NCBI GenBank assembly: GCA_016866785.1
Contig: VGLH01000039.1
Location: 1 to 32,517, forward strand
Length of the DNA stretch: 32,517 bases
Source of the DNA: Candidatus Poribacteria bacterium
GTDB lineage: Bacteria; Poribacteria; WGA-4E; GCA-2687025
Reading direction: 5' to 3'
The notes below the pieces were generated by a model. That model was not told the DNA's origin and ran no database searches. It worked only from the letters and a program-made list of their open reading frames with translations. Made by a program: the position numbers and the translations under genes. Numbering within the stretch: the first letter of the stretch is position 1; every line of letters begins with the position of its first letter. Below are positions 8,621-28,105 of this stretch, piece by piece.

Positions 8621-10372
8621 ATGATTACGCGCGTGATCATCCGGAACTTCAAGCGATTCGAAGAGCAGGAGTTCGGCGACCTCGGCAGCCTCCACTTGTT
8701 GGTCGGGCAGAACAACTCCGGCAAGAGCACGCTCCTTCAGGCGCTTGCGATCTGGTCCTTCTGCATCGAGCAGTTCAGGATGTCTGCGCGAAGTGGTGAG
8801 CGCGCCATCGAGATCACGCTGCCGAATTTCACACCGTTGCCGTTGCCTGAGTTCCGACTTCTGTGGCTGAACAAGACGGAACGCAAGTATACACAGCTTA
8901 GTGACCCCGCGTCAGGCAAGATGAAGCGAGTTCAGGAGTTCATCCGCATTGAGTTGGACGTCGAGTGGCAGACTCGCGTTGGTACCTCCCATCAGTTCCG
9001 CGTTGAGCTTCGATACCAGACGCGACAGACCGTTTACGCAAGACCGGTTGGAGGATGGGAGCGATTCCGTGCATTGGACCGCGAAGGAGCCTTTCCTCGC
9101 GTCGTCTATGTGCCTCCGACATCCAATATCGAGGATCGAGAGCAATGGGTTGACGATCCTGTGCTGGGCGCGCGGGTGGGACGCGGCCAGCCTGGTAGCA
9201 TCGTCCGTAACGTGCTTCTTCGCACTGCTGAACGGCAAGGTGGACTGGGCGTTCGGACTCCATTCGGAGAACTGACGTCAAGGGTCAAGGACTGGTTCGG
9301 CGTAGACGTATGCCAGCCGGAGTACCGGCGAGGGCAAGACCAGTACATCACATCCGTCTACCGCACCGCGGATCAGGTTGAACTCGATTGGGTCAACGCT
9401 GGGAGTGGACTCCTTCAGACTCTCATTGTGCTCTCGTTCCTCTACGGATTCGAACCCGACGTCTTGTTACTGGACGAACCCGACGCGCACCTTCATGTGA
9501 ACCTGCAGCGGTCGCTGCTGCAGTTCCTGAGCAAGACCGCGCGCGAAGAGTCTGTACAGATGCTCATCGCGACGCATGCAGAGGAGTTCATCCGCAACGT
9601 CGACGCGTCGCAGATCACGTTCCTGACACCGGGAGGACCGCGACCCATCAAGCGCGTCGAAGCTGCAACGTTCGCGCTCAGCGAGATCAGCAACCTCGAT
9701 CTGGTGAACCTGATCGAAAGGCGCGTTTTCGTCTACGTCGAAGGAGAAACGGACGCGGAACTCCTGCGCGCATGGGCGGGCGTGCTGGACGGAACGGCGG
9801 AGTTCGAGGGGATCGAGTCGGCTATAGAATCGCGCGTCGCGTTCATCCCGCTTGGCGGGGGCAGCGCCGACGAAATGAAAGAACGCGCGGATCGGCACTT
9901 CGACGGCGCTCGCCTTCTCAGCGACAGAGCGGAGCGTGTGATGTTGCTCGATCGGAACAACCGGGCGACACTGCCGGCGGACACAGACGGGAATCCTGTC
10001 CTGCGCGTGTGGAAGCGGCGGCACGTTGAGAACTACCTGTTGATTCCTCATCCGTGGCAAAGGGTTGTCGAACGCGATTTCGAGCTCCACCGCAACATAG
10101 TCGACGGGTTCTTCTTCGACGAGCAGGGCTTCTCGGATCGAACCGATTGGCTTTCGGACACCGTCGAGAGTCTGAACACAAGCCGCGCCAAACTGCTGCT
10201 TTTCGACGCGCGGCAAGCGCTGAACCATTACGATGCGCTGAACGCGCGCCTCTACGACCACGGTCTGATCTATACGCGCCATGACATCGCCAGCGCGATG
10301 CGCCCCGAGGAAGTGCACCGGGACGTTCGAGACGTGCTCCGGCTGATCTACGACAAGACGCGCGTGCCATAG
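8621..10372 (+). CDS. AAA (ABC/SMC-like) ATPase with C-terminal TOPRIM-like domain, OLD/PARIS-like
   Basis: 583 residues from the ATG at 8621 (GGAGG 13 nt upstream). The N-terminus I-R-N-F-K-R-F plus Walker A G-Q-N-N-S-G-K-S-T (29-37), an ABC-type signature region with G-S-G-L-L-Q, Walker B L-L-L-D-E-P-D (D285/E286) and the switch histidine in I-A-T-H-A-E-E define an AAA15/AAA21-type ATPase. The C-terminal part starts with Y-V-E-G-E-T-D (E374) and has L-L-D-R-N (D444). These resemble TOPRIM acidic motifs. The segment R-R-H-V-E-N-Y-L-L (E470) is typical of OLD-like and DUF4435/AriB-like proteins. Related proteins act in anti-phage defence as nucleases or toxins; that role is inferred here. Part of the gene has lower GC (56% in 8881-9060), hinting at transfer. 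Confidence 0.85.
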   Translation: MITRVIIRNFKRFEEQEFGDLGSLHLLVGQNNSGKSTLLQALAIWSFCIEQFRMSARSGERAIEITLPNFTPLPLPEFRLLWLNKTERKYTQLSDPASGKMKRVQEFIRIELDVEWQTRVGTSHQFRVELRYQTRQTVYARPVGGWERFRALDREGAFPRVVYVPPTSNIEDREQWVDDPVLGARVGRGQPGSIVRNVLLRTAERQGGLGVRTPFGELTSRVKDWFGVDVCQPEYRRGQDQYITSVYRTADQVELDWVNAGSGLLQTLIVLSFLYGFEPDVLLLDEPDAHLHVNLQRSLLQFLSKTAREESVQMLIATHAEEFIRNVDASQITFLTPGGPRPIKRVEAATFALSEISNLDLVNLIERRVFVYVEGETDAELLRAWAGVLDGTAEFEGIESAIESRVAFIPLGGGSADEMKERADRHFDGARLLSDRAERVMLLDRNNRATLPADTDGNPVLRVWKRRHVENYLLIPHPWQRVVERDFELHRNIVDGFFFDEQGFSDRTDWLSDTVESLNTSRAKLLLFDARQALNHYDALNARLYDHGLIYTRHDIASAMRPEEVHRDVRDVLRLIYDKTRVP

Positions 10373-10392: not shown

Positions 10393-11424
10393 ATGAAACT
10401 CGGCATGGGCATCTACGCGGGCATGGCGACGGACCGCAACCTCCAGTTCGCCCGCCAGATCGGCGTCGGACACATCGTCCAGCACCTCCCCGGCGAGGAG
10501 ACCTTCCCCTCGGCGCGAGAAGGCTACTGGTCCTACGACGACCTGGCGCGCCTGCGAGTCCATATCGAGAGTCACGGTTTGGCGCTCGCCGCCATCGAGA
10601 ACTTCGCCCCGCATCACTGGGATCAGGTGCTGCTCGACTTGCCCGGCAAGGCGGCGCAGATGGAGAACCTCAAGAAGACCATCCGCAACATGGGCAAGGC
10701 GGGGATTCCCGTCATGGGTTACTACTTCAGTCTGGCGGGTGTCTGGGGACGCGTCTCCGGCGAGTTCGCGCGCGGCGGGGCGACGTCGGTCGGCTTCCTG
10801 GAGGATCAGGCTCCCGAACAGAAGCCCATTCCCCACGGCGAAGTCTGGGGCACCCGCGTCCGATCCGACGTGCCTCCGGGTGACATCGGGACTGTCACAC
10901 ACGAGCAGATGTGGAGCCGCCTCGAGTACTTCCTGACGAACCTGGTGCCCGTCGCCGAGGCAGCCGGCGTTCGGCTCGCCGCGCACCCCGACGATCCGCC
11001 GCTACCCGTGCTGCGCGGTACGGCACGCCTCATCACGCACCCCGACTACTACCGACGACTGCTCGACATCGCTCCGAGCTCGTCCAACGCCATCGAGTTC
11101 TGCCAGGGAACCGTGTCCGAGATGCAGGGGGCTGATGTCTACGACGCGATCCGCCGGTACGCCTCCGAGGGAAAGATCGCGTACGTGCACTTTCGGAACG
11201 TCCGTGGGAAGGTTCCCAACTACCGCGAGGTCTTCATCGACGAGGGCGACGTCGATATGGTAAAAGCCCTGCGCGCCTACGCCGAATCCGGCTACGACGG
11301 CGTTCTGATCCCCGACCACACGCCAGCGACCGCCTGCGACGCGCCGTGGCATGCCGGAATCGCGTACGCGATCGGTTACATGCGCGCCGCGATGACGGTC
11401 TTGGGCATTCCCATCGAGTCTTAG
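10393..11424 (+). CDS. uxuA: Mannonate dehydratase-like TIM-barrel enzyme
   Basis: 343 residues. The UxuA family pattern is clear: A-A-H-P-D-D-P-P near residue 197, F-C-Q-G-T near residue 236, V-H-F-R-N-V near residue 261, E-V-F-I-D-E-G-D near residue 275 and I-P-D-H-T-P near residue 308, then W-H-A-G-I-A-Y-A-I-G-Y. These include the His, Cys and Asp metal ligands known for the family. UxuA converts D-mannonate to 2-keto-3-deoxy-gluconate in uronate breakdown. At 343 residues it is shorter than the E. coli enzyme (394), as in many non-enteric homologues, so substrate identity is moderately certain. It starts 20 nt after the AAA-ATPase gene. The nearby FAH-family hydrolase might act on keto-deoxy acids (inference). 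Confidence 0.85.
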   Translation: MKLGMGIYAGMATDRNLQFARQIGVGHIVQHLPGEETFPSAREGYWSYDDLARLRVHIESHGLALAAIENFAPHHWDQVLLDLPGKAAQMENLKKTIRNMGKAGIPVMGYYFSLAGVWGRVSGEFARGGATSVGFLEDQAPEQKPIPHGEVWGTRVRSDVPPGDIGTVTHEQMWSRLEYFLTNLVPVAEAAGVRLAAHPDDPPLPVLRGTARLITHPDYYRRLLDIAPSSSNAIEFCQGTVSEMQGADVYDAIRRYASEGKIAYVHFRNVRGKVPNYREVFIDEGDVDMVKALRAYAESGYDGVLIPDHTPATACDAPWHAGIAYAIGYMRAAMTVLGIPIES

Positions 11425-11450
11425 CACCGCGTTTCAGGAGGCCTGCGACG

Positions 11451-14400
11451 GTGGCATCACGTCGGTTCGCGTTCGCTGTCCTGTGCGTGCTGCTCGCTCG
11501 CGCATCCCTGGCAACCGCCGCCTATGTTCCCGATGAGGCAATGGTGCGCGGGATGAACCGCGCCGTCGGCCTCATGGAGCAGTTCCGCTTCACCGACGCG
11601 GCAACAGCGTTCGACGCCCTCGCCGCCAGGGCTCCCACTTGGGCGGTGGCGCACCTGAACGCGGGCATCGCGCACCTGAACGCGCTTTCGGACCCGTCGA
11701 AGCCCGGTGGGGCTCTCGACAAGGCGGAAGCCGCGTTCAGGAAGGCTGCCGAGCTCGACCCGATGATGCCCAATGCGCCCTACTGTCTCGGCATGTTGAG
11801 CCGGTACCGAGGCGATTCCACGGCAGCACTCAAGTACTTCCAGGAGGCGCTCAGGTTGAGCCCGGAAGACCCCGATGCGCTCTACTTCATCGGCACGATG
11901 CTGCTCTCGTCGGGGCAGATGGAAGCATCCGTCGACTACTTCCGACGAGCCATTGAGCGGAACCCGTACCTGCTGTCGGCGCACTACTCGCTCGCACAGG
12001 CGCTCATACGGCTCCAGGAACGACAAGAGGCATTGAGCGTCTTGGCGACGTTCCAGCGACTCGACGCCGCGAAGGTGGGCGTCAAGCGCGCCGTCGCCTA
12101 CACGGAGATGGGTTCGCTCGCGGACGTGGTCCGCCTCTTCCCGCCCGCCAAGGACGCTCCCCGCGCGAGCAAACTTGCCGTGCGATTCACCACGACGGAC
12201 GCGGGTCTGACGCTATCGCACGCCGGAAAGGGCGTGCCGCTCGCATTCGCCGCCAACGACGCCGCGAGCCTCGGCGGATCGCTGGGGATCGGCGACGTGG
12301 ACGGCGACGAGGACCTGGATATCGTGGCTCCGGCAGTCCGAATGACCGACGGAACGGTTCGTGACGTGCTCTATGTGAACGCCAACGGGCGGTTCCGAAG
12401 TCAGCCGCTTCCGAATAGCCGGGCGAGTTCCGCGCGGGATTCGGTCGCTGCCCTGTTCGGTGACTACGACGGCGACGGGAACGCCGATCTGTATCTTCTT
12501 CGCTCAGGTCCGAACGCGTTGCTGCGCGGCGATGGAAAGGGTTCGTTTGCCGATGTGACCGATGCAGCCGGAGCATCCGGAGGCGACGCGCGCTCGCTGG
12601 CTGGCGCGTGGTCCGACGCCGACCACGACGGCGACCTCGACCTGCTGATCCTCAACGCGGACGGCTTGGCGCTTCTTCGGAACAACGGCAACGGTTCGTT
12701 CGCGGACGTGACGGCGAGTTCGGGTCTTGGCGATTTGCCTGGGAACCCTTGGGGGCTCTCGCTCGCGGACTTCGACAACGACGCGGACGTGGATGCGCTG
12801 ATCGTCCCTCGGAGCGGCTCGGCGCAGCTTCGACTGAACCAGCGCCTGAACCAGTGGGCAACCGGTCCGTCGCCATCACCGTTCGTGTCGAGCGCTGTGT
12901 CGGTGCTCACGGCGGACTTCGACAAGGACGGCGACGCCGATGTGCTGGCGCTCCTTGGCGATTCGACCCCGGCGCGGCTCTACCGGAACCGAGGCGACGG
13001 CTCCTTCGAGGCGTACGAGTGGAGCGATCGCGTTACGGGCAGCACCGGCGCGCTCATCGACTACGACAACGACGGCGCGGTGGACGTCTTTATCGCCAAC
13101 GGGAAGGTCGGAGGGGAGAAGTCGGGTCACTGCGTTCTCCTCGCGAACGACGGCGCTGGTCGGCTGACCGACGTCTCGAACACTGTGGGGCTCGCCGGCG
13201 TCGTCATCGCGAACGCGCGCGGCGCGGCAGGTGTGGACATCGACAGCGACGGCGACAGCGATCTGGTCATCGCCCGCAACGGCGACACGCCGGTCGTCCT
13301 GCGGAACGATGGAGCCAATCGCCACAAGTGGTTGTCGATCCGACTCGCCGGCAAGATGGCGAATCGGCTCGGGTACGGCTCGACGGTCGAGGTGAAGTGC
13401 GGCAGTCTCTGGCAGAAGTCGGAGCTACAGATGGTCGGCGGCGTCGGGGCGTCGTCGAGCCCTCGTCTTGAGTTCGGGTTAGCGGACGCCTCGACGGCGG
13501 ATTTCGTGCGGATCGTGTGGTCCAACGCGGTGCTGCAGTCGGAGCTCGAGGTGGCGGCGAACCAGCGGCTGACCATCCCAGAGGTGCAGCGGAAGGCGTC
13601 TTCGTGCCCGATCCTGTTCGCTTGGAACGGAGAGCGGTTCGAGTTCGTGACCGACTTCATGGGAGGGGGCGGCATCGGCTTCTTCGTCGCGCCCAGCGCG
13701 TACGGACCTCCCGATCCTTCGGAGCGCGTGCGTATCGAAGGCTCCCAACTCCGCGAAAGAGACGGCGAGCTCCAGCTCCGAGTCATGGAACCGATGGAGG
13801 AGGTCGCCTACGTCGATGAGTTGCGTCTGACAGCGGTCGATCATCCGGTCGGCACCGAGGTCTACCCGGACGAGCGCTTCTCGACGGACGGTCAGATGCC
13901 ATCCGGCAAGCCGTACGTCTACGAACGCCGCATTCATCCGATCCGAGCCATCGACCAGGATGGAGCAGACTGGACGGAGACCGTGACAGACCGAGATCGC
14001 AGATACCCGACTCTCGACCGCCATCCCCGGTTCCTCGGCTATCTCGCCCGCGTGCACTCGCTCGAACTCGACTTCGGAAACCGGTTCTCGACGCTCGACG
14101 CGTCTAAGCCGTGTGTGCTGAACCTGTACGGATGGATCGAGTACCCCTACTCGCATGTCGTCTACGCGGCTCAGCAGGCTGGGATCGAGGGCTCCGGCAT
14201 GAGCGTCGACGTTAGGACCGGCGGAGGCGACTGGCGAACCGTTCTGACGTCCGCTGGCTATCCGGCAGGCATGCCCAAGACGATGACGCTGGACATCAGC
14301 CCGTACGTAACGCCAGACACACAGGCGATCCGACTGCGGACCAACATGGAGATCTACATCGACGAGGCGTTCATCGCGCAGGATGTGGGCACGGACGCCG

Positions 14401-14864
14401 TTCGCCAGACGCAGATACGGGCATCGCGGGCGACACTCGAACACGCCGGCTACCCGCGCGAAGCCAGCCCAGACGGCAGGATGCCGCGTCTCTACGACTA
14501 CTCGACGATGGATCGCACCTACGCCTTCCGCAACACGCGGGGGGTCCACACGCGGTACGGCGACGTAACGCCCGTCGTCGCCGATGCCGACGACCAATAC
14601 GTCATCCTGGGGCGCGGCGAGGAGCTCGCGGTCGCGTTCAGCGCTGCGGACCTCCCGCCAATCCCGGAGGGCTACGAGCGCACGTATCTGTTCGACACCT
14701 TCGGCTACTGCAAGGATATGGACCTCTACACGGCGTTCCCCGACACCGTCGAGCCGCTGCCCTTCCGAGCCATGTCCGGCTATCCCTACGCGTCCACCGA
14801 GTCCTATCCCGACACGACGGCGATCCGGCAGTACCGTGCGACCTACCAGACGCGCGAGAAATGA
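11451..14864 (+). CDS. Secreted TPR / VCBS (FG-GAP) repeat / ASPIC-UnbV protein
   Basis: 1137 residues from a GTG with AGGAGG 9 nt upstream. Layout: signal peptide (1 to about 23, ending A-T-A-A); TPR-like helices (about 30-205) with A-L-x-Y-F-Q-E-A-L-R-L-S-P and similar; at least seven calcium-binding FG-GAP/VCBS loops (about 280-600) such as D-V-D-G-D-E-D-L-D, D-Y-D-G-D-G-N-A-D and D-I-D-S-D-G-D-S-D; an ASPIC/UnbV domain (about 626-713) with G-Y-G-S-T-V-E-V and V-R-I-V-W-S-N; then about 420 residues (718-1137) that I cannot assign, opening with F-A-W-N-G-E-R-F-E-F-V-T-D. It is probably an exported propeller-type binding protein. The next gene starts 4 nt downstream, so the pair is likely co-translated. 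Confidence 0.9.
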   Translation: MASRRFAFAVLCVLLARASLATAAYVPDEAMVRGMNRAVGLMEQFRFTDAATAFDALAARAPTWAVAHLNAGIAHLNALSDPSKPGGALDKAEAAFRKAAELDPMMPNAPYCLGMLSRYRGDSTAALKYFQEALRLSPEDPDALYFIGTMLLSSGQMEASVDYFRRAIERNPYLLSAHYSLAQALIRLQERQEALSVLATFQRLDAAKVGVKRAVAYTEMGSLADVVRLFPPAKDAPRASKLAVRFTTTDAGLTLSHAGKGVPLAFAANDAASLGGSLGIGDVDGDEDLDIVAPAVRMTDGTVRDVLYVNANGRFRSQPLPNSRASSARDSVAALFGDYDGDGNADLYLLRSGPNALLRGDGKGSFADVTDAAGASGGDARSLAGAWSDADHDGDLDLLILNADGLALLRNNGNGSFADVTASSGLGDLPGNPWGLSLADFDNDADVDALIVPRSGSAQLRLNQRLNQWATGPSPSPFVSSAVSVLTADFDKDGDADVLALLGDSTPARLYRNRGDGSFEAYEWSDRVTGSTGALIDYDNDGAVDVFIANGKVGGEKSGHCVLLANDGAGRLTDVSNTVGLAGVVIANARGAAGVDIDSDGDSDLVIARNGDTPVVLRNDGANRHKWLSIRLAGKMANRLGYGSTVEVKCGSLWQKSELQMVGGVGASSSPRLEFGLADASTADFVRIVWSNAVLQSELEVAANQRLTIPEVQRKASSCPILFAWNGERFEFVTDFMGGGGIGFFVAPSAYGPPDPSERVRIEGSQLRERDGELQLRVMEPMEEVAYVDELRLTAVDHPVGTEVYPDERFSTDGQMPSGKPYVYERRIHPIRAIDQDGADWTETVTDRDRRYPTLDRHPRFLGYLARVHSLELDFGNRFSTLDASKPCVLNLYGWIEYPYSHVVYAAQQAGIEGSGMSVDVRTGGGDWRTVLTSAGYPAGMPKTMTLDISPYVTPDTQAIRLRTNMEIYIDEAFIAQDVGTDAVRQTQIRASRATLEHAGYPREASPDGRMPRLYDYSTMDRTYAFRNTRGVHTRYGDVTPVVADADDQYVILGRGEELAVAFSAADLPPIPEGYERTYLFDTFGYCKDMDLYTAFPDTVEPLPFRAMSGYPYASTESYPDTTAIRQYRATYQTREK

Positions 14865-14868
14865 CGGC

Positions 14869-16782
14869 GTGACGCCGCGCGCCGTGATCATCGGCGCGGC
14901 GCTGATCCCGGTATCGTGCTTCTGGATCACGAACTCGGAGATGGCGACTGGCGTCACCGAGATCACTTCGACCTCCCTCCTCATCGGCGCGGTCTTCATC
15001 CTGTTCTGCCTGGTGCTCGCGAACGTCGCGACGGAGCGCGTTTCACCGCGTTACGCCCTGACTGGCGGCGAGATGCTGACCATCTACGTAATGGTCACGC
15101 TCGCGATGAGCATCAACGGGATCGGCATGTTCGGCTTCCTAACGACGGCTCTGACGAATCCCTACTACTACGCGACCCTTGAGAACCGGTGGCGCGACTA
15201 CTGGACGCCGATGCCCTCGTGGTTCGCCCCGCAGAGCCCAACGGCGATCGCGCACTTCTACGAGGGAAACTCGACCCTCTACACGCCGGATCATCTGCGG
15301 TCTTGGCTCGTTCCAAGCATCGTCTGGGCGGGGTTCACGGCAGCGCTGCTCTGGACGACGTTCTGCCTGAACGCGATCCTGCGCCGCCGCTGGAGCGAGC
15401 AGGAGCAGCTCACCTATCCGATTACGACGCTGCCTGTCGAGATGAGTCTTCGCGAGCACCGATTCACGGACTACTTCGCGAACCGATGGCTCTGGCTCGG
15501 GTTCGTCATCCCGTGCGTCATCCAGTCGTGGAACAGCGTCCAGTTCCACGTGCCGTCGCTGCCGTATATCCCCGTGAAGCCGTTCGACGTCGGATACCTG
15601 TTCCGCGACCGACCGTGGAACGCCGTCGGATGGGTTCCCGTCGGGTTCCACCCGTCGGTGATCGGGCTGACGTTCTTCATCCCGCTGGACGTGTCGTTCA
15701 GTTGTTGGGCGTTCTACGTATTGCGCAAGCTCCAAGACGTGTTCGCCTCGGCGGCGGGGCTTCGCGGATACGTCGCAGGCATCCGGTTCCCAGGTCACGC
15801 GGAGCAGGGAGCCGGCGCGTGGCTGGGGCTTTCGGCGATCGCTCTGTGGCTGAGCCGCAGCCATCTGCGCGCCGTGTGGCGCATGGCACTCGGCAGGAAC
15901 CGCGCAGCGGACGACGACGAGCCGATGCCGTACCGCCTTGCGTCAGCGGGCTTCGCGGCGGGCATGGTGCTTCTGTGCGGCTTCGCGGTTGCGGCGGGCA
16001 TCCGGTTGTGGGTAGCTGTCGCGTTCTTCGGGCTCTACGTCGTCTACATGCTCGCCTTGACACGCATCCGCAGCGAGGGCGGGGTCATCTGGCACTTCGG
16101 ACCCTGGCGGAACCCGGCGGAGCTCCTCGTCGACGCGGTCGGTTCGCGACGGATCGGTCCCGCGAGCCTGGTTCCGCTGACCGTTCTCCAATGGTTCAAT
16201 CTGGACTATCGCTGCGCGCCGATGCCTCACCAGTTGGAGGGAATGCACATCGGCAGACGAGCGCGTCTGCCGCTCCGACAGTTCACCGGGGTCATGCTCC
16301 TGGCGATGGGTCTCGGCATCGTGTTCAGCTTGTGGACGGTGCTCCATATGTACTACGCGAAGGGAGCCGGCACGCCCAACGTGAACCCCTGGCGGATGCA
16401 GATGGGGCTGATTCCGTACCGATGGCTGCGCGGATGGCTCGACAACCCCTCGGGCGCGGATGCCGCGAGTATGGGAACCGTCGGGCTCGGGTTCGCCGCC
16501 GTGACGTTCCTGAGCTTCATGCACCTCCGATTCGTGTCGTGGGCCCTGCATCCCATCGGGTACGCGGTGGGTACCACGTTCATCATCGACCTGATCTGGA
16601 TGCCGATGTTCGTCTCGTGGGCGCTGAAGGTGATCGTGTTGCGCGTCGGCGGCATCCGGGCATATCGAAAGGCGCTGCCCTTCTTCATCGGTCTGCTGCT
16701 TGGCGATTACGTGATCGCCTGCCTGTGGAGCATCGCTGGCGTGATCCTGGACATACCGATGTATCGCGTGTTCCCCAACTGA
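14869..16782 (+). CDS. Polytopic membrane protein, DUF6785/DUF6784-like
   Basis: 637 residues from a GTG 4 nt after the previous stop; the SD is weak, consistent with translational coupling. Many hydrophobic segments alternate with short loops: paired helices in the first 80 residues, a large soluble loop rich in Trp/Tyr/Pro, then further helices to the C-terminus. Characteristic stretches include G-G-E-M-L-T-I-Y, Q-L-T-Y-P-I-T-T-L-P, R-I-R-S-E-G-G-V-I-W-H-F-G-P and Q-W-F-N-L-D-Y-R. I associate this architecture with the DUF6785/DUF6784 family common in Planctomycetes and Poribacteria-like genomes; its function is unknown and a transporter role is a guess. Co-occurrence with the exported VCBS protein may be meaningful. 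Confidence 0.82.
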   Translation: MTPRAVIIGAALIPVSCFWITNSEMATGVTEITSTSLLIGAVFILFCLVLANVATERVSPRYALTGGEMLTIYVMVTLAMSINGIGMFGFLTTALTNPYYYATLENRWRDYWTPMPSWFAPQSPTAIAHFYEGNSTLYTPDHLRSWLVPSIVWAGFTAALLWTTFCLNAILRRRWSEQEQLTYPITTLPVEMSLREHRFTDYFANRWLWLGFVIPCVIQSWNSVQFHVPSLPYIPVKPFDVGYLFRDRPWNAVGWVPVGFHPSVIGLTFFIPLDVSFSCWAFYVLRKLQDVFASAAGLRGYVAGIRFPGHAEQGAGAWLGLSAIALWLSRSHLRAVWRMALGRNRAADDDEPMPYRLASAGFAAGMVLLCGFAVAAGIRLWVAVAFFGLYVVYMLALTRIRSEGGVIWHFGPWRNPAELLVDAVGSRRIGPASLVPLTVLQWFNLDYRCAPMPHQLEGMHIGRRARLPLRQFTGVMLLAMGLGIVFSLWTVLHMYYAKGAGTPNVNPWRMQMGLIPYRWLRGWLDNPSGADAASMGTVGLGFAAVTFLSFMHLRFVSWALHPIGYAVGTTFIIDLIWMPMFVSWALKVIVLRVGGIRAYRKALPFFIGLLLGDYVIACLWSIAGVILDIPMYRVFPN

Positions 16783-21797: not shown

Positions 21798-21979
21798 TGG
21801 CTCCGGCGCTGGGTTCGAGCATCGAAGCGATGTCTACCGGTAATGGGTGCGTGACGTTTGACTGGTACGTCGGTCGCGGGAGCCTCTGGCGGCCGTCACG
21901 GTGCGCGACGAAGCGGCTCTGACCGCAACGGGCCGCGATTGCCATGGGCAGAATGGATCGCACGACGAAGGAGAAACAC

Positions 21980-23014
21980 ATGACCCGGTGTAGGCGGGAT
22001 CGGACGCGCGCTGCGAATGGAATCGCGCTGACGTTCGGCATGGCGCTGCTCGTCGGCATCACGCAGAGCGTGATGGGCCAGGTATCGTTCCAGCAATTGC
22101 GCGAGCCGAACACCGACATCTCATTCAACGCGATGTCGGTCGCCGCGCCGGGCACCATTGTGCTCGCCGGTGAGCAGGTCTTCGAGAACGAAAAGGGTGT
22201 CGTTTCGGTCAGCTCCGATCGCGGCAAGACGTGGGCTTTGGTCAAGGGTCTCACTCGCGGGCGCCTGCTGGGTGTCACGATGGTGGACGGTATGAACGGG
22301 TGGGCTGTAGGTGAGGGCGGCGCAGTGGTCGCCACGACGGACGGCGGCAAGAAGTGGACGTCTCAGACCAGCAAGGTTCTCGTCGATCTGTACGACGTCT
22401 TCTTCCTCAACCCGCGCAAAGGCTGGGCGGTCGGTGCGAACAGCACCGTCGTGACGACTTCGGATGGCGGGCGCACATGGCAGGTACTCGCCGGCGGGCA
22501 GCCCAGCGGTCAGGTTGGCGAAGGCGAAGTGATGCTGATGGGCGTGTCTTTCATCTCTGAGACGGTCGGGTTCGCCGCTGGAGCCGGGGAGACGGGCGTC
22601 ATTCGGTCGACCACCGATGGCGGGAAGACCTGGAAGGTCGTCCACACAACCGAAGACGGGCTGTTCGACATCTCGTTCTCGAGCCCGCGCCAGGGATGGG
22701 CGGTTGGGAAGTTCGGCACGGTCATCATGACCTCGGACGGCGGGGCGACCTGGAAGGCGCAGCCCGGCGGCAGCGAAGAGGACCTGATCGGCGTCGAAGC
22801 CGGAGACGACAAGAACGTGTGGGCTTCCGGCGAGTACGGGGCGATTGCCTATACGACGAATGGCGGAACCAAGTGGAACTCCGTGTCGGTTCCAGTGACG
22901 ATTGGCGGCAAGTCGAAGCCGCTGACGGCGAAGGTCAGCGACATCGCCGCCATCAAGAACGAAGCGTGGGCGATGACGGACTTCGGGCGAGTCATCTACT
23001 TCGTCGCCAAGTGA
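21980..23014 (+). CDS. Secreted YCF48/HCF136-like beta-propeller protein
   Basis: 344 residues from the ATG at 21980, chosen because AAGGAG sits 6-7 nt upstream; an earlier in-frame ATG at 21944 lacks this. The N-terminus has a basic region and a hydrophobic core ending near S-V-M-G-Q (about residue 34), a signal peptide. Five to six BNR/YCF48 repeats follow, each like G-W-A-V-G-x-x-G-x-V-x-x-T-x-D-G-G-x-x-W, forming a propeller. In phototrophs such proteins assist photosystem II assembly. In non-phototrophs they are periplasmic or extracellular proteins of unknown role, and no photosynthesis gene is seen here. 182 nt separate it from bioB with no clear promoter or terminator seen. Confidence 0.9.
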   Translation: MTRCRRDRTRAANGIALTFGMALLVGITQSVMGQVSFQQLREPNTDISFNAMSVAAPGTIVLAGEQVFENEKGVVSVSSDRGKTWALVKGLTRGRLLGVTMVDGMNGWAVGEGGAVVATTDGGKKWTSQTSKVLVDLYDVFFLNPRKGWAVGANSTVVTTSDGGRTWQVLAGGQPSGQVGEGEVMLMGVSFISETVGFAAGAGETGVIRSTTDGGKTWKVVHTTEDGLFDISFSSPRQGWAVGKFGTVIMTSDGGATWKAQPGGSEEDLIGVEAGDDKNVWASGEYGAIAYTTNGGTKWNSVSVPVTIGGKSKPLTAKVSDIAAIKNEAWAMTDFGRVIYFVAK

Positions 23015-23024
23015 CGGGGATCGC

Positions 23025-24215
23025 GTGACGGTTCAGCCACGCTCACCGGAACTCGCCGATCGGATAGCGCGGCTCGGTACGGAGTCAGCCTTCCTCGTAT
23101 TGAGCCGCGCCCAAGCGCTCGAGGCGTCCGGCAGGTCGGTCGTGCATCTGGAGATCGGTCAGCCGGACTTCCCTACCCCCGAACACATCTGTGACGCCGC
23201 CATTCGCGCTATCCGCGATGGAGCGACCGGCTACTCGGCTACGGAGGGTATCCGCCCATTGCGAGAGGCGGTCGCTGAGCAGATCTCCGCGTCGCGCGGC
23301 GTCGAGGTCTCGCCCGAAGAGGTAGCCGTCACGCCTGGGGCGAAGCCACTTCTGTTCTTCGCTGCGCTCGCCTGCGTACGTCCCGGCGACGAGGTGATCT
23401 ACCCGGATCCTGGGTTCCCGATCTACGAATCGGTCATCCGGTTCGCCGGCGGGGTTCCAGTGCCGCTGCCGCTGTGCCCGGAGCTCGGCTTCGGCTTCCA
23501 GGAAGAGGAGTTGCGACGTCGGGTATCGCCCAAGACACGGATGTGCATCCTGAACTCGCCGCAGAACCCAACGGGCGGCACGCTCCGCCAGGAGGATGTT
23601 CGACTGATCTGCGAGCTCTCCGCAGAGCACGGGTTCTGGGTGCTCGCGGACGAAGTGTACTCAGAGCTGGTCTATTCCGGTTCCCATGTGAGCCCTCTGA
23701 GCCACGACGGGATGCGCGACCGGACGATCCTCGTGGATGGAGCCAGCAAGACGTTCGCGATGACCGGCTGGCGTCTCGGCTGGGGTGTCATGCCCAAGGC
23801 GGTCGTCGAAGCGGTCTCCCGACTGATGGTGAACTCCAACTCGTGCACGGCGACGTTCGTCCAACACGCCGGGATCGCCGCGTTGCGCGGACCACGGGAG
23901 CCCTTACGCCGGATGCTCGAGGAGTTCCGAGCTCGTCGCGACATGCTCATCGCTGGACTCAACGGCATCGACGGCATACGGTGCGGAAGTCCGAACGGTG
24001 CGTTCTACGCGTTCCCGGACGTTCGCGGAGTCTCCGACGATGATCGGGCGTTTGCCGAGTCTCTGCTGGCGGACCAGGGAGTGGCGACGCTGTGGGGATC
24101 ATCCTTCGGCGCGCAGGGCAAGGGACACCTGCGGCTCTCCTATGCCACGCGGCGCGAGCAACTGGAACTCGGGCTCGCGGGCATCCGCAAGCACGTTGAG
24201 AAGCTGAAGGGCTAG
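23025..24215 (+). CDS. Class I/II pyridoxal-phosphate aminotransferase (aspartate aminotransferase-like)
   Basis: 396 residues from a GTG 10 nt after the YCF48 gene. PLP fold motifs: I-G-Q-P-D-F-P-T-P near residue 44, G-Y-S-A-T-E-G near residue 69, N-S-P-Q-N-P-T-G near residue 177, D-E-V-Y near residue 209 and the Schiff-base lysine K242 in D-G-A-S-K-T-F-A-M-T-G-W-R-L-G-W. This is the subgroup I-gamma/AspC-like pattern. The amino-acid substrate cannot be fixed from sequence. The homoserine kinase gene downstream makes an aspartate-family role attractive, but that is inference. Confidence 0.92.
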   Translation: MTVQPRSPELADRIARLGTESAFLVLSRAQALEASGRSVVHLEIGQPDFPTPEHICDAAIRAIRDGATGYSATEGIRPLREAVAEQISASRGVEVSPEEVAVTPGAKPLLFFAALACVRPGDEVIYPDPGFPIYESVIRFAGGVPVPLPLCPELGFGFQEEELRRRVSPKTRMCILNSPQNPTGGTLRQEDVRLICELSAEHGFWVLADEVYSELVYSGSHVSPLSHDGMRDRTILVDGASKTFAMTGWRLGWGVMPKAVVEAVSRLMVNSNSCTATFVQHAGIAALRGPREPLRRMLEEFRARRDMLIAGLNGIDGIRCGSPNGAFYAFPDVRGVSDDDRAFAESLLADQGVATLWGSSFGAQGKGHLRLSYATRREQLELGLAGIRKHVEKLKG

Positions 24216-24271: not shown

Positions 24272-25198
24272 GTGTCAGTGAGCCATCCGAAGATCGTCGT
24301 TCAGGTTCCCGCCAGCACGTCGAACCTCGGGTCCGGCTTCGATACCCTCGGAATGGCGCTCCAGATCCATTCCCGATACACGTTTGCCGTATGGGATGGC
24401 GAAGGTCTCTGTCACATCACAGCTTCGGGCTTGAACTCGGACGAGATCCCGCGAGACAGCACGAACCTTGCCTACCGCGCCTACCGCTCGCTCTACGAGC
24501 TCGCGGGACTGGACCCCCCGCCGGTCGCCATTCACATCGTCAACGGAATCCCTCTCGAACGGGGTCTCGGTGGAAGCGCGTCGGCGATCCTCGCCGGACT
24601 GCTCGCGAGCAACGCGTGGGTCTCCGAGCCCGTGCCGATTCAGCAGGTGCTTCAGCTCGCCACACGCCTCGACGGCCATGCTGACAACGTCGCAGCATCG
24701 CTGTACGGCGGTCTCCGCGTCGCGTGCCGAGATGGCGAACGAGTCCATTCCCTCCCGGTGGAGTGCTCGGACGACCTGCAGATCGTGATCGCAATCCCGA
24801 AGGTTCGGGTTCCGACAGCGGCGGCGCGATCCGTGCTCCCGCCATCGATCCCCCTCCAAGACGCCGTCTTCAACATCGGCCGAGTCGCCCTCCTCGTGGC
24901 TGCGTTCGCCACGCGCGAGTACCGGCACCTGGCTGCCGGCATGGAAGACCGTGTCCATCAGACCTACCGCGAGGCACTTGTGCCGGAAATGCGCGAAGCC
25001 TTCACCGCCGCTCGAGAGGCTGGGGCATGGGCCGCTGCGCTGAGCGGATCGGGCCCGACGATCGCGGCATTCTGCATCGGCGCTGCCGAAGAGGTCGCCG
25101 AGGCGATGAGAAGTACCTTTGCACGGGCTCGGATCGATGCGACAATCCACATCACGACGATTGACTTTCGCGGCGCGAGCACGAAGGTCGCGGACTGA
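24272..25198 (+). CDS. thrB: Homoserine kinase ThrB (GHMP family)
   Basis: 308 residues from a GTG with AAGGAG 6 nt upstream. GHMP kinase motifs are present: P-A-S-T-S-N-L-G-S-G-F-D-T-L-G near residue 13, the ATP loop L-E-R-G-L-G-G-S-A-S-A near residue 92, and S-G-S-G-P-T-I-A-A-F near residue 253. ThrB phosphorylates homoserine for threonine synthesis. The family's usual ATP loop G-L-G-S-S is here G-L-G-G-S, which occurs elsewhere and should be functional. thrA and thrC are not in the window. It follows the aminotransferase gene after 56 nt. Confidence 0.94.
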   Translation: MSVSHPKIVVQVPASTSNLGSGFDTLGMALQIHSRYTFAVWDGEGLCHITASGLNSDEIPRDSTNLAYRAYRSLYELAGLDPPPVAIHIVNGIPLERGLGGSASAILAGLLASNAWVSEPVPIQQVLQLATRLDGHADNVAASLYGGLRVACRDGERVHSLPVECSDDLQIVIAIPKVRVPTAAARSVLPPSIPLQDAVFNIGRVALLVAAFATREYRHLAAGMEDRVHQTYREALVPEMREAFTAAREAGAWAAALSGSGPTIAAFCIGAAEEVAEAMRSTFARARIDATIHITTIDFRGASTKVAD

Positions 25199-25315: not shown

Positions 25316-28105
25316 ATGTCCGCGCCGTGGTATGCGCAGGATATCCTCGCCATCGTTCGAGCTCTCAAGACGGATCTCAGGACCGGGCTGACCACGCTGG
25401 AGGCGGCTTCTCGCGCCCACGACTCCACGAATGCGGACGTGGCGATGGCGCAGCCGAAGCCCCTCTGGTCTGTGATCGTCGAGCAGGCGACGAACGCCCA
25501 AACCGCGTTGCTGGCGGCGGCGGGCGTGGGATCGGTGTTGGGGGGGCTCGCGACGGGAACACCCGCATACTGGCAAGGGATCGTCTGCCTCGTCGTGGGC
25601 ATCGCGATGGTGGCTATCCGTGTATGGCTCCGCATTCGGATAGACCGGGACCTGTCGTTGATCCGCGCTGGAGTACGGCGGAAGGCGCGGGTTCTGCGCA
25701 ACGGCGAGCCCGTCGATGTGGACCCGTTGGACATCGTCCTCGGAGACGTGCTCCGACTCCGCGCCGGGGACGCAGTTCCAGCCGACGCCCGCGTGTTCGC
25801 GTGCCAGGGCTTGTGCGTCAACCAGTCGCCTCTCACCGGTATCTCAGACCCGTCCGAGAAGACCTCGAGCACGTTGACCGGCGAGCTCTCGCCTCAAGAA
25901 CAGACGAACATGCTGTTCGCGGGATCGTTCGTCCATTCGGGTACCGGCAGCGCCGTCGTGGTTGCCGTCGGTGACGAGAGAACGATCTGTCAGTTCTACG
26001 CCAACCGGCACGCCGAGTTTCCGCTCGTCGCGACCCACGACCACGTGGCGCGCGCCTATCCGAAGATCGCTTGGCTCGGAGCCGTCGGCGCGCTCATCCT
26101 GGCAGCGCTCGTGCATCGTGGCGTCTCGGCGAACGCCGGAGAGACGCTGCACGCTGCCAGTGTCGCTGTCGCGTTTGTCTTGGCGGTGCTCCCTGCGCAA
26201 TCCGAACTGCTGACACTGCTGGTGTTCGCCAAGAGCCTCAAGGGATTGGTGCGGCTAGGAGCTTCCGTACAGGACCCGGAGATGCTGGAGTCGCTCGCGC
26301 TGACGACGACCGTGTGCTTCGACCCGCAGGGAGTCATCACGCGTGACGAGATGGCTGTTCATCGCGTGTTCGTCGACGGGCAGGTCTTCGACGGAAGCGC
26401 CGTACCCAGGCTCCTCGGAGCGGGAACAGAGATCGAACCCAACGAAGAATTGCTCCGGTATTCGATGCCCGATGTCGAGTACTCCGACGCGCCGGAGGAC
26501 ACGTCCGACGGTCCGACTGCGCCGCCGGACCTGTACCTCTTGCTCGTGAGCACGGCGATGTGCGCGCTCCACGCAGACGCGGGAGAAGACGGTCGGGAAG
26601 CGATGGAGCCACGCGTCAAGGACGCCCTCCTGCAACTGGCACGCAACGCCGGGATCGACGCATCGAGCTTCCGCGGCCTGATGCCCAAAGTCGCGGACTT
26701 GCCCTACGACTCGACGCGTCGCCGACAGAGCGTTCTCTTCCGCACCGAAGCAGATCGCGGATACCTGTTCGTCATCGGCAGCGTGGCGCCGATCCTGGAG
26801 CAGTCGAAGACGATCCGCCTCAACGACGAGGAAGACGTGCTCCAAGCCCGGCAGCGGGAGACCTTGTTCTACGTTCACGACGTCATGCGGTCGGACACGA
26901 CCCACGTGGTCGGTGTCGCCTATCGACGGATCTTCGGCGATATCGACCATGCAGCGGAGAACATCGAACGGCTCGAGGACGGAGTGACCTTCCTGGGGAT
27001 GATCGGGTTCTCCGATCCGCTTCGTGGCGATCTGCCCGAGGTGTTCGATGCGTGTTCGCGGGCTGGGATGCGTCTCGTCATGATGGCGGATGCGGAACCG
27101 CAGGTGGCTCGGCGCATCGCACGGGAGTGTGGTCTGCTGGATCATCGGTCACAGTTGCTGACAGGCGATCAGCTCAACCTGATGGAAGACGACGACCTGA
27201 TGCCCATGGTGGACCGGGTCATCGTCTACTCCCAGTTGCGGGGCGACCAGAAGGCGCGTGTGACGTCGATCCTTCGACGCCGAGAGAACGACGTGGCGTT
27301 CATGGGCAGGAACATGTACGACATCCCGGCGTTGCGCCACGCCGACGTCAGCATCGCCCCTGCCCGGTTCAGCGCGGATGCCGCCGTCCACGAGGCTGGG
27401 ATCGTCCTGGAAGATGCGACGCTCGGGGGTCTCTATCGCGTGCTCCGACTCGCCAAGGATGCGGGACGCGTCATTCGGCGGGTATCTCATTGGAGCCTGT
27501 CCGTGCACGCCGCGCTGGGATTCCTGCTCGCGATTGGCGCGGTGGTCGGGCTCTTTCTCGGCGGACCCAAGGTTCCGCTGGAGCTCTCGCAGCTCGTCTG
27601 GGCAGAGCTGCTCATCTTCGGCGTTCCGTTCTCGCTGGCTGCGGTGGGTATGCGGTTCCCTGAACCGACTCACTGGGCTACTGCGAACCGCAACGTGCCC
27701 AAGGGAATCGCCTGGCAGCACGTCGCGTCGCGAGGGCTGGTGCTCGCGCTGATGTCGCTCGCCGCGGGGATTGTCGTCTCGCGGTCGGTGCCGGCGGGAC
27801 CGTCACGAGCCGCCGTTTATCAAGCAGCTTCGGCGTTTGTTCTGGTGTCTTCATCGCTCGTGCTGCTGCTGCGTGACCTCATTGGCAGGCGAGGACCCGG
27901 AGCCGAGTTCGCCAAAGCGAACCGCTGGCTCATCGCTGGGTCGGCGGTGTCGGCGTTCCTTGCGGCTGTGGTTCCGTTCACACCGATCGGTGGGCTCTTC
28001 GGCGCTCCTGGGAGCGAGACGCTGGCTCCGGCGACGTTCCGCGTGATGTGGGTGGTACTCGCGGCGTTACCGGTTGCTGCGTGGTTCATGCCTCAGCCGG
28101 AATGA
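25316..28105 (+). CDS. Degenerate P-type ATPase-like membrane protein (probable pseudoenzyme)
   Basis: 929 residues from an ATG with AGGAG 7 nt upstream. The layout is that of a P2-type (Ca2+-ATPase-like) pump: N-terminal cation-ATPase region, two helices, A domain, helix pair, P/N domains, then six C-terminal helices. The catalytic motifs are eroded. TGES is T174-G-I-S. The intramembrane P-E-G-L motif is P293-A-Q-S. DKTGTLT is D336-P-Q-G-V-I-T, with only the Asp, G and last T kept. The N-domain KGAP is I487-G-S-V-A-P. TGD is A591-D-A. GDGVNDAP is G664-R-N-M-Y-D-I-P. DPxR (567-570) and the hinge Q-K remain. The frame is open throughout with normal codon use, so it looks selected and not decaying. 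Ion pumping is unlikely; a sensor, scaffold or channel-like role is possible. Confidence 0.88.
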   Translation: MSAPWYAQDILAIVRALKTDLRTGLTTLEAASRAHDSTNADVAMAQPKPLWSVIVEQATNAQTALLAAAGVGSVLGGLATGTPAYWQGIVCLVVGIAMVAIRVWLRIRIDRDLSLIRAGVRRKARVLRNGEPVDVDPLDIVLGDVLRLRAGDAVPADARVFACQGLCVNQSPLTGISDPSEKTSSTLTGELSPQEQTNMLFAGSFVHSGTGSAVVVAVGDERTICQFYANRHAEFPLVATHDHVARAYPKIAWLGAVGALILAALVHRGVSANAGETLHAASVAVAFVLAVLPAQSELLTLLVFAKSLKGLVRLGASVQDPEMLESLALTTTVCFDPQGVITRDEMAVHRVFVDGQVFDGSAVPRLLGAGTEIEPNEELLRYSMPDVEYSDAPEDTSDGPTAPPDLYLLLVSTAMCALHADAGEDGREAMEPRVKDALLQLARNAGIDASSFRGLMPKVADLPYDSTRRRQSVLFRTEADRGYLFVIGSVAPILEQSKTIRLNDEEDVLQARQRETLFYVHDVMRSDTTHVVGVAYRRIFGDIDHAAENIERLEDGVTFLGMIGFSDPLRGDLPEVFDACSRAGMRLVMMADAEPQVARRIARECGLLDHRSQLLTGDQLNLMEDDDLMPMVDRVIVYSQLRGDQKARVTSILRRRENDVAFMGRNMYDIPALRHADVSIAPARFSADAAVHEAGIVLEDATLGGLYRVLRLAKDAGRVIRRVSHWSLSVHAALGFLLAIGAVVGLFLGGPKVPLELSQLVWAELLIFGVPFSLAAVGMRFPEPTHWATANRNVPKGIAWQHVASRGLVLALMSLAAGIVVSRSVPAGPSRAAVYQAASAFVLVSSSLVLLLRDLIGRRGPGAEFAKANRWLIAGSAVSAFLAAVVPFTPIGGLFGAPGSETLAPATFRVMWVVLAALPVAAWFMPQPE

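Follow-up and report, generated by a model that had tools for sequence, protein, structure and literature searches.

A conserved family of degenerate P2-type ATPases in Poribacteria, read as putative pseudoenzymes

P-type ATPases are usually treated as a family defined by the phosphorylated Asp. By analogy, the closest precedent of the Poribacteria family described here is TMEM94/ERMA, a eukaryotic ER protein with DKQGI and GSSANL and without TGES (PMC13322241), and with a disputed activity: one study detected neither ATPase activity nor Mg2+ binding for TMEM94 (PMC12134183), whereas Mg2+ uptake that was abolished by the D427N substitution was reported for ERMA (PMC13322241). TMEM94 was absent among the best 50-60 sequence/fold matches listed for the pseudo-pumps. 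By sequence profile, the closest solved relatives are the P2A Ca2+-ATPases (LMCA1 (lmo0841), 458 bits; SPCA1, 445 bits), and pumps of the LMCA1, SPCA1 and PMR1 type are also among the closest folds, with the same domain order. They differ from the pseudo-pumps by their intact DKTGT, TGES, KGA and GDGVND motifs and acidic M4-M6 ligands. The P3B Mg2+-ATPases (MgtA, TIGR01524) give the top NCBIfam match and a fold TM of 0.72-0.75; MgtA is a catalytically intact pump. The FUPA families resemble the pseudo-pump in being uncharacterised prokaryotic P-type proteins, and would differ from it in keeping the catalytic signature. No bacterial P-type ATPase pseudoenzyme was described in the literature that we searched, which does not prove that none exists. 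The statement of an earlier, sequence-only reading of this DNA that no system of this kind had been described has to be qualified for eukaryotes, where TMEM94/ERMA shows comparable losses (PMC12134183, PMC13322241).

The window, that is the whole stretch of 32,517 nucleotides analysed here, is an entire contig (G000:C39). The genome to which it belongs measures 4.35 Mb in 291 contigs, with an estimated completeness of 95%. The genes of interest in the window are the following:

21944..23014, + strand: Ycf48/BNR-type beta-propeller with a hydrophobic N-terminus, the most persistent neighbour of the pump gene (7 of 9 families)
23025..24215, + strand: class I/II PLP aminotransferase, aspartate-aminotransferase-like, a conserved neighbour
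24272..25198, + strand: homoserine kinase ThrB, 117 bp upstream of the pump gene and adjoining it in most families
25316..28105, + strand: pseudo-P-type ATPase, a stop-free ORF of 929 aa with the P2 domain order

The pseudo-pump domains follow the order N-terminus, M1-M2, A domain, M3-M4, P, N, P and M5-M10. Pfam (E1-E2_ATPase, 1.6e-24) and NCBIfam both place the window protein among the P-type ATPases, in agreement with the 929-residue frame of P2 domain order that had been read from the letters alone. Its top NCBIfam models, the TIGR01524 Mg pump and the TIGR01522 Ca pump, both scored far under their equivalog cut-offs (189 bits for TIGR01524, against a cut-off of 610.75). Among the 28 family members scanned with Pfam, E1-E2_ATPase was found in 28, Cation_ATPase_N in 26 and Cation_ATPase_C in 24; all 28 still had a recognisable A domain, compared with 8 for the HAD domain and 6 for the N domain. 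Taking the A, P and N domains and the M1-M10 layout as the criterion for the P-type ATPase superfamily fold, the pseudo-pump family meets it. We also noticed that residues 370-428 (26423-26599) form an acidic, low-confidence and probably disordered N-domain linker, mostly missing from families other than that of the window. A promoter and terminator scan gave no signal above shuffles.

AlphaFold2 models were obtained for the window protein (mean pLDDT 80) and for the L058 protein of Poribacteria isolate SB0662_bin_35 (mean pLDDT 82). Although only 23% identical to each other, both matched E1-state P2 pumps in Foldseek, with TM up to 0.75-0.78. The complete P-type fold is thus predicted to be kept in these models, as had been anticipated for a structure prediction. 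Given that the AF2 alignments contained mostly canonical pumps, the models show fold compatibility and are not an independent proof. Loci taken from the genome searches did not enter these predictions.

The motif substitutions of the window protein were placed by alignment to solved Ca pumps and 80 canonical homologues. Residues were compared, in SERCA numbering, between 67 pseudo-pumps from the class of the window genome (class members) and 80 canonical pumps spread over many phyla of Bacteria and Archaea:

25679..26023, + strand: A (actuator) domain, residues 122-236, with the highest conservation of any domain in the family (pairwise identity 0.41 on average)
25835..25846, + strand: TGIS in place of TGES, residues 174-177, with I176; catalytic Glu in 0 of 67 class members
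26192..26203, + strand: M4 PAQS in place of PEGL, residues 293-296; helix-breaking Pro in 66 of 67, Glu in 8 of 67
26321..26341, + strand: DPQGVIT in place of DKTGTLT, residues 336-342; Lys in 0 of 67, Asp kept in 30 of 67
26774..26782, + strand: IGS in place of KGA, residues 487-489; Lys lost in 67 of 67, Gly invariant
27305..27328, + strand: GRNMYDIP in place of GDGVNDAP, residues 664-671; Mg-binding Asp in 0 of 67, last Asp in 66 of 67

In the window copy TGD is also replaced, by ADA, and the alignment put this and the five motif substitutions listed above exactly where the sequence-only reading had seen them. Across the class, E183, K352, K515 and D703 are lost together in all 67 members and no intact-motif copy was found among them (0/67); the 80 canonical pumps retain nearly all the catalytic, nucleotide and cation residues compared. 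The same reading had D336, DPxR and the hinge Lys surviving, which is true of the window copy (D336, DPLR and K646) but not of the family. The phosphorylatable Asp (D351) is present in 30 of the 67, window copy included, and lost in 37; the DPPR Asp is kept in 3 and D627 in 4, and the hinge position holds Lys in 16 and Arg in 50. With an acceptor Asp in only 30 members, autophosphorylation cannot be the function of the family as a whole, and with D336 still in place, residual phosphorylation is not excluded in the window copy.

We found losses beyond those first listed, in the nucleotide pocket and in the M5/M6 cation ligands. In the pocket, F487 is kept in 4 of 67 and R560 in 9, K515 and E442 in none. 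As for the cation ligands, M4 E309 is kept in 8 and M6 N796 in 3, and M5 N768 and E771 as well as M6 D800 in none; M6 nevertheless remains polar, with Q, H or N at the N796 position. The loss of K515 alone is not diagnostic, because P1B and P6 ATPases also lack this residue (PMC10654040), whereas the combined losses are. What is kept is structural: the A-domain glycines, PAD-R, W726 and W912 and, in 66 of 67 members each, the M4 Pro and the last GDGVND Asp. The family meets none of the criteria of an active enzyme (DKTGT, the TGE Glu, GDGxND, the nucleotide pocket), nor does it have the acidic/Asn ligands of M4, M5 and M6 by which a P2A Ca2+ pump is recognised. Three further P-type ATPases of the window genome keep DKTGT and TGES/TGEA, which rules out a genome-wide decay of these enzymes.

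A homologue was present in all 40 genomes searched as relatives. By using a profile built from 28 members, we obtained a match in 82 of 83 class genomes, with one copy in almost every genome, closed ones included; the only class genome without a match is 81% complete. The 56 high-quality genomes of a phylum sample, single-contig genomes included, all gave a match in the profile search (56/56). The nearest orthologues of the window copy, at 44% identity, read TGIS / CFDPQGVIT / GRQLYDIA and TGIS / CFDPRGVMT / GRQLYDIP, that is, they share its substitutions as a conserved pseudoenzyme requires. The orthologue of genome G001 (L005 / L153, G001:C15:24776-27515) lies in two overlapping frames split near residue 337-339, a frameshift that may reflect genuine decay or else a mistake in the assembly.

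Outside the class, genome G040, from a sister lineage, has a pseudo-pump together with canonical pumps, and genome G041, from another lineage, a canonical pump only. We could not find an intact P2A pump in the class with a canonical Ca-pump profile, since this profile reached at least 335 bits only in G040 and G041; the class maximum was 178 bits, and the best class match among the matches listed was the pseudo-pump itself. A recent loss private to the window genome is ruled out, the losses being common to the class and to the G040 copy. In a tree built with motif columns masked, all pseudo-pumps, including that of G040, fell on one side of a 100/99 branch and the canonical pumps on the other. 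This split speaks for one origin of the group, but it has to be read cautiously because the pseudo-pump tree has long branches.

Searching named genomes with the single window protein gave no match. An alignment-based search of named genomes returned mostly canonical pumps, and its scores cannot separate distant pseudo-pumps from canonical ones. In 36 named genomes the top score was at most 563 bits, compared to at least 749 bits for near-full-length class members, and the family was not seen there; this negative result is limited, as the score alone would not reveal a distant pseudo-pump. A P2-type homologue of Clostridia bacterium RGIG4680 (L076:8519-11170, JAFUOL010000034.1) is partly altered (TGAE, DKTGVFT, GDSVQDADA) and is possibly a second, independent degenerating pump in another phylum.

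The pump dN/dS had a median of 0.11 (range 0.08-0.29; Nei-Gojobori, 35 close pairs from other genera), and the cytoplasmic catalytic part alone gave similar values in these pairs. The window copy is not among them: at 44% identity to the nearest relative, its dS is saturated. In 31 matched pairs, dN/dS was 0.08 for thrB and 0.12 for the pump, so that selection on the pump is slightly weaker yet clearly purifying. Losses common to orthologues and purifying selection, the two together being the criterion for a conserved pseudoenzyme, are thus both found. The proposal of a selected pseudo-pump, with dN/dS well below 1, is borne out by the common losses, the absence of intact motifs (0/67), the low dN/dS of the other members and the predicted P-type fold; its specific role as a sensor, regulator or scaffold remains unsupported. 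Constraint has also moved within the protein. Conservation peaks in the P domain in a set of 46 divergent canonical pumps (pairwise identity 0.59-0.62), but in the A domain in 16 divergent members of the family (0.41, versus 0.31-0.34 for the P domain). M5-M6 (0.34) rank among the better conserved segments of the family, and M7-M10 stay at the canonical level (0.27 versus 0.25 in canonical pumps).

In the window, the propeller, aminotransferase, ThrB and pump genes lie on the + strand separated by 10, 56 and 117 bp, which is the usual order across families. The propeller, probably exported as judged only from inspection of its hydrophobic N-terminus, precedes the pump in the same orientation at 18 of 26 loci. 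In f3 it is directly upstream, 54 bp from the pump, and the aminotransferase and ThrB genes are missing; in f4 thrB is missing, and in f8b no aminotransferase gene adjoins the pump. We did not find the propeller near the pump in f5, f6b, f6c, f1d and f9 (some on short contigs), and the cluster is absent in the lineages f6b, f6c, f1d and f9. With the effect of the other two genes removed, the partial distance correlation with the pump was 0.52 for the propeller, 0.39 for ThrB and -0.07 for the aminotransferase, a weak test with 13 related loci. Ycf48/BNR propeller paralogues are strongly expanded: the 13 genomes searched gave 13-36 matches each. Elsewhere in the window, an ORF at 8621-10372 (+) has AAA_15/AAA_21 ATPase domains in Pfam, of the OLD/AbiEii-type kind, and is a possible defence gene; 11346-14864 (+) encodes a TPR, FG-GAP and UnbV_ASPIC protein (Pfam), and after it 14584-16782 encodes a membrane protein with DUF6785/DUF6784.

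What could such a protein do? The destroyed catalytic motifs and the frameshifted G001 copy are what one would see if the gene were decaying or had been misassembled, but this explanation is hardly credible and we reject it for the family: open frames of ~900-980 aa run across the class, closed genomes included, dN/dS is ~0.11 and the gene is single-copy in almost every class genome. Since independent assemblies and closed genomes share the pseudo-pump, neither chance nor assembly error explains it. An unlikely alternative is a still-active transporter with non-canonical chemistry, in which ATP or another energy source would drive a changed substrate through the M4-M6 cavity, as claimed for ERMA/TMEM94. 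The kept fold and M4 Pro, the polar M6, the 30 members with D351 and the Mg2+ uptake reported for an ERMA equally devoid of TGES (PMC13322241) are compatible with it. However, 37 members have no acceptor Asp, all 67 lack K352, D703, E183 and K515, the nucleotide pocket and the M5/M6 acidic ligands are gone, and the TMEM94 cryo-EM study argues against activity even in the precedent (PMC12134183).

A regulator or sensor tied to the neighbouring amino-acid genes, for instance for amino acids or homoserine, would fit the ThrB and aminotransferase genes directly upstream in most families and an M4-M6 site that is now neutral and polar, no longer acidic. We consider it very unlikely, given that f3 has the propeller next to the pump instead of both genes, that f4 and f8b each lack one of them, and that the correlation with the pump is weaker for ThrB, and nil for the aminotransferase, than for the propeller. 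The transmembrane half could also serve as a passive, ATP-independent channel or as a lipid-binding or scrambling protein, an option helped by the conservation of M5-M6 and M7-M10 and by the buried lipid near M4 in the TMEM94/ERMA structures (PMC12134183, PMC13322241). It remains rather improbable, as a bare channel would not need the cytoplasmic A domain, the most conserved part, and a pore has no direct evidence. Our preferred reading, with a probability of roughly 0.6, is a membrane protein that works independently of ATP, as a scaffold or as a sensor of a ligand, a role inferred without biochemistry.

The normal catalytic cycle has very probably been lost, an inference from sequence without activity data, and the best reading of the family is that of a selected P-type ATPase pseudoenzyme. 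Support at this level comes from signature loss, purifying selection in close pairs, near-universal single copy, the lack of a detectable intact P2A pump in the class and the conserved cluster. For the preferred scaffold or sensor role, an ancestral cation pump would have become a P2-type pseudoenzyme once, early in Poribacteria, losing its phosphorylation, dephosphorylation, nucleotide-binding and cation-binding residues and keeping the complete fold, and would be the only P2-type protein remaining in the sampled class. Placed by inference in the inner membrane, it would work without an ATP-driven E1/E2 cycle, residues of every Post-Albers step being gone, and might act through its conserved A domain and through the M4-kinked cavity that it still has; on the outer side the propeller could be its partner. 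That partnership is tentative, resting on gene order and on the weak 13-locus correlation only, and it has against it the lineages without the cluster and the abundance of propeller paralogues. Doubtful as well is the fuller proposal of an ancient pseudoenzyme, fixed early in Poribacteria in replacement of the canonical P2 pump, that joins the exported Ycf48-like propeller in a membrane complex and serves, without ATP, as a platform for scaffolding, assembly or signalling.

It appears that the pump fold has been turned to a different task. A near-universal, single-copy bacterial family with the fold and without the chemistry suggests that pump architecture can be selected for uses other than ATP-driven transport. 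Automatic annotation likely labels these pseudo-pumps as cation pumps, and metabolic reconstructions of Poribacteria would be misled by that label.

TMEM94/ERMA is like the Poribacteria family in its P-type-like fold, which comprises ten TM helices and the A, P and N domains and is degenerate by an altered DKTGT and by the loss of TGES and GDGVND. It differs in being eukaryotic and in keeping the Asp-Lys pair of DKQGI, whereas in the Poribacteria family this Lys is lost in 67 of 67 members and the Asp in 37. The loss of the Asp in more than half of the members indicates that the fold can be maintained without any phosphorylation cycle, and it bears on the TMEM94/ERMA dispute. With even the Asp dispensable, the Poribacteria family has gone beyond TMEM94/ERMA.
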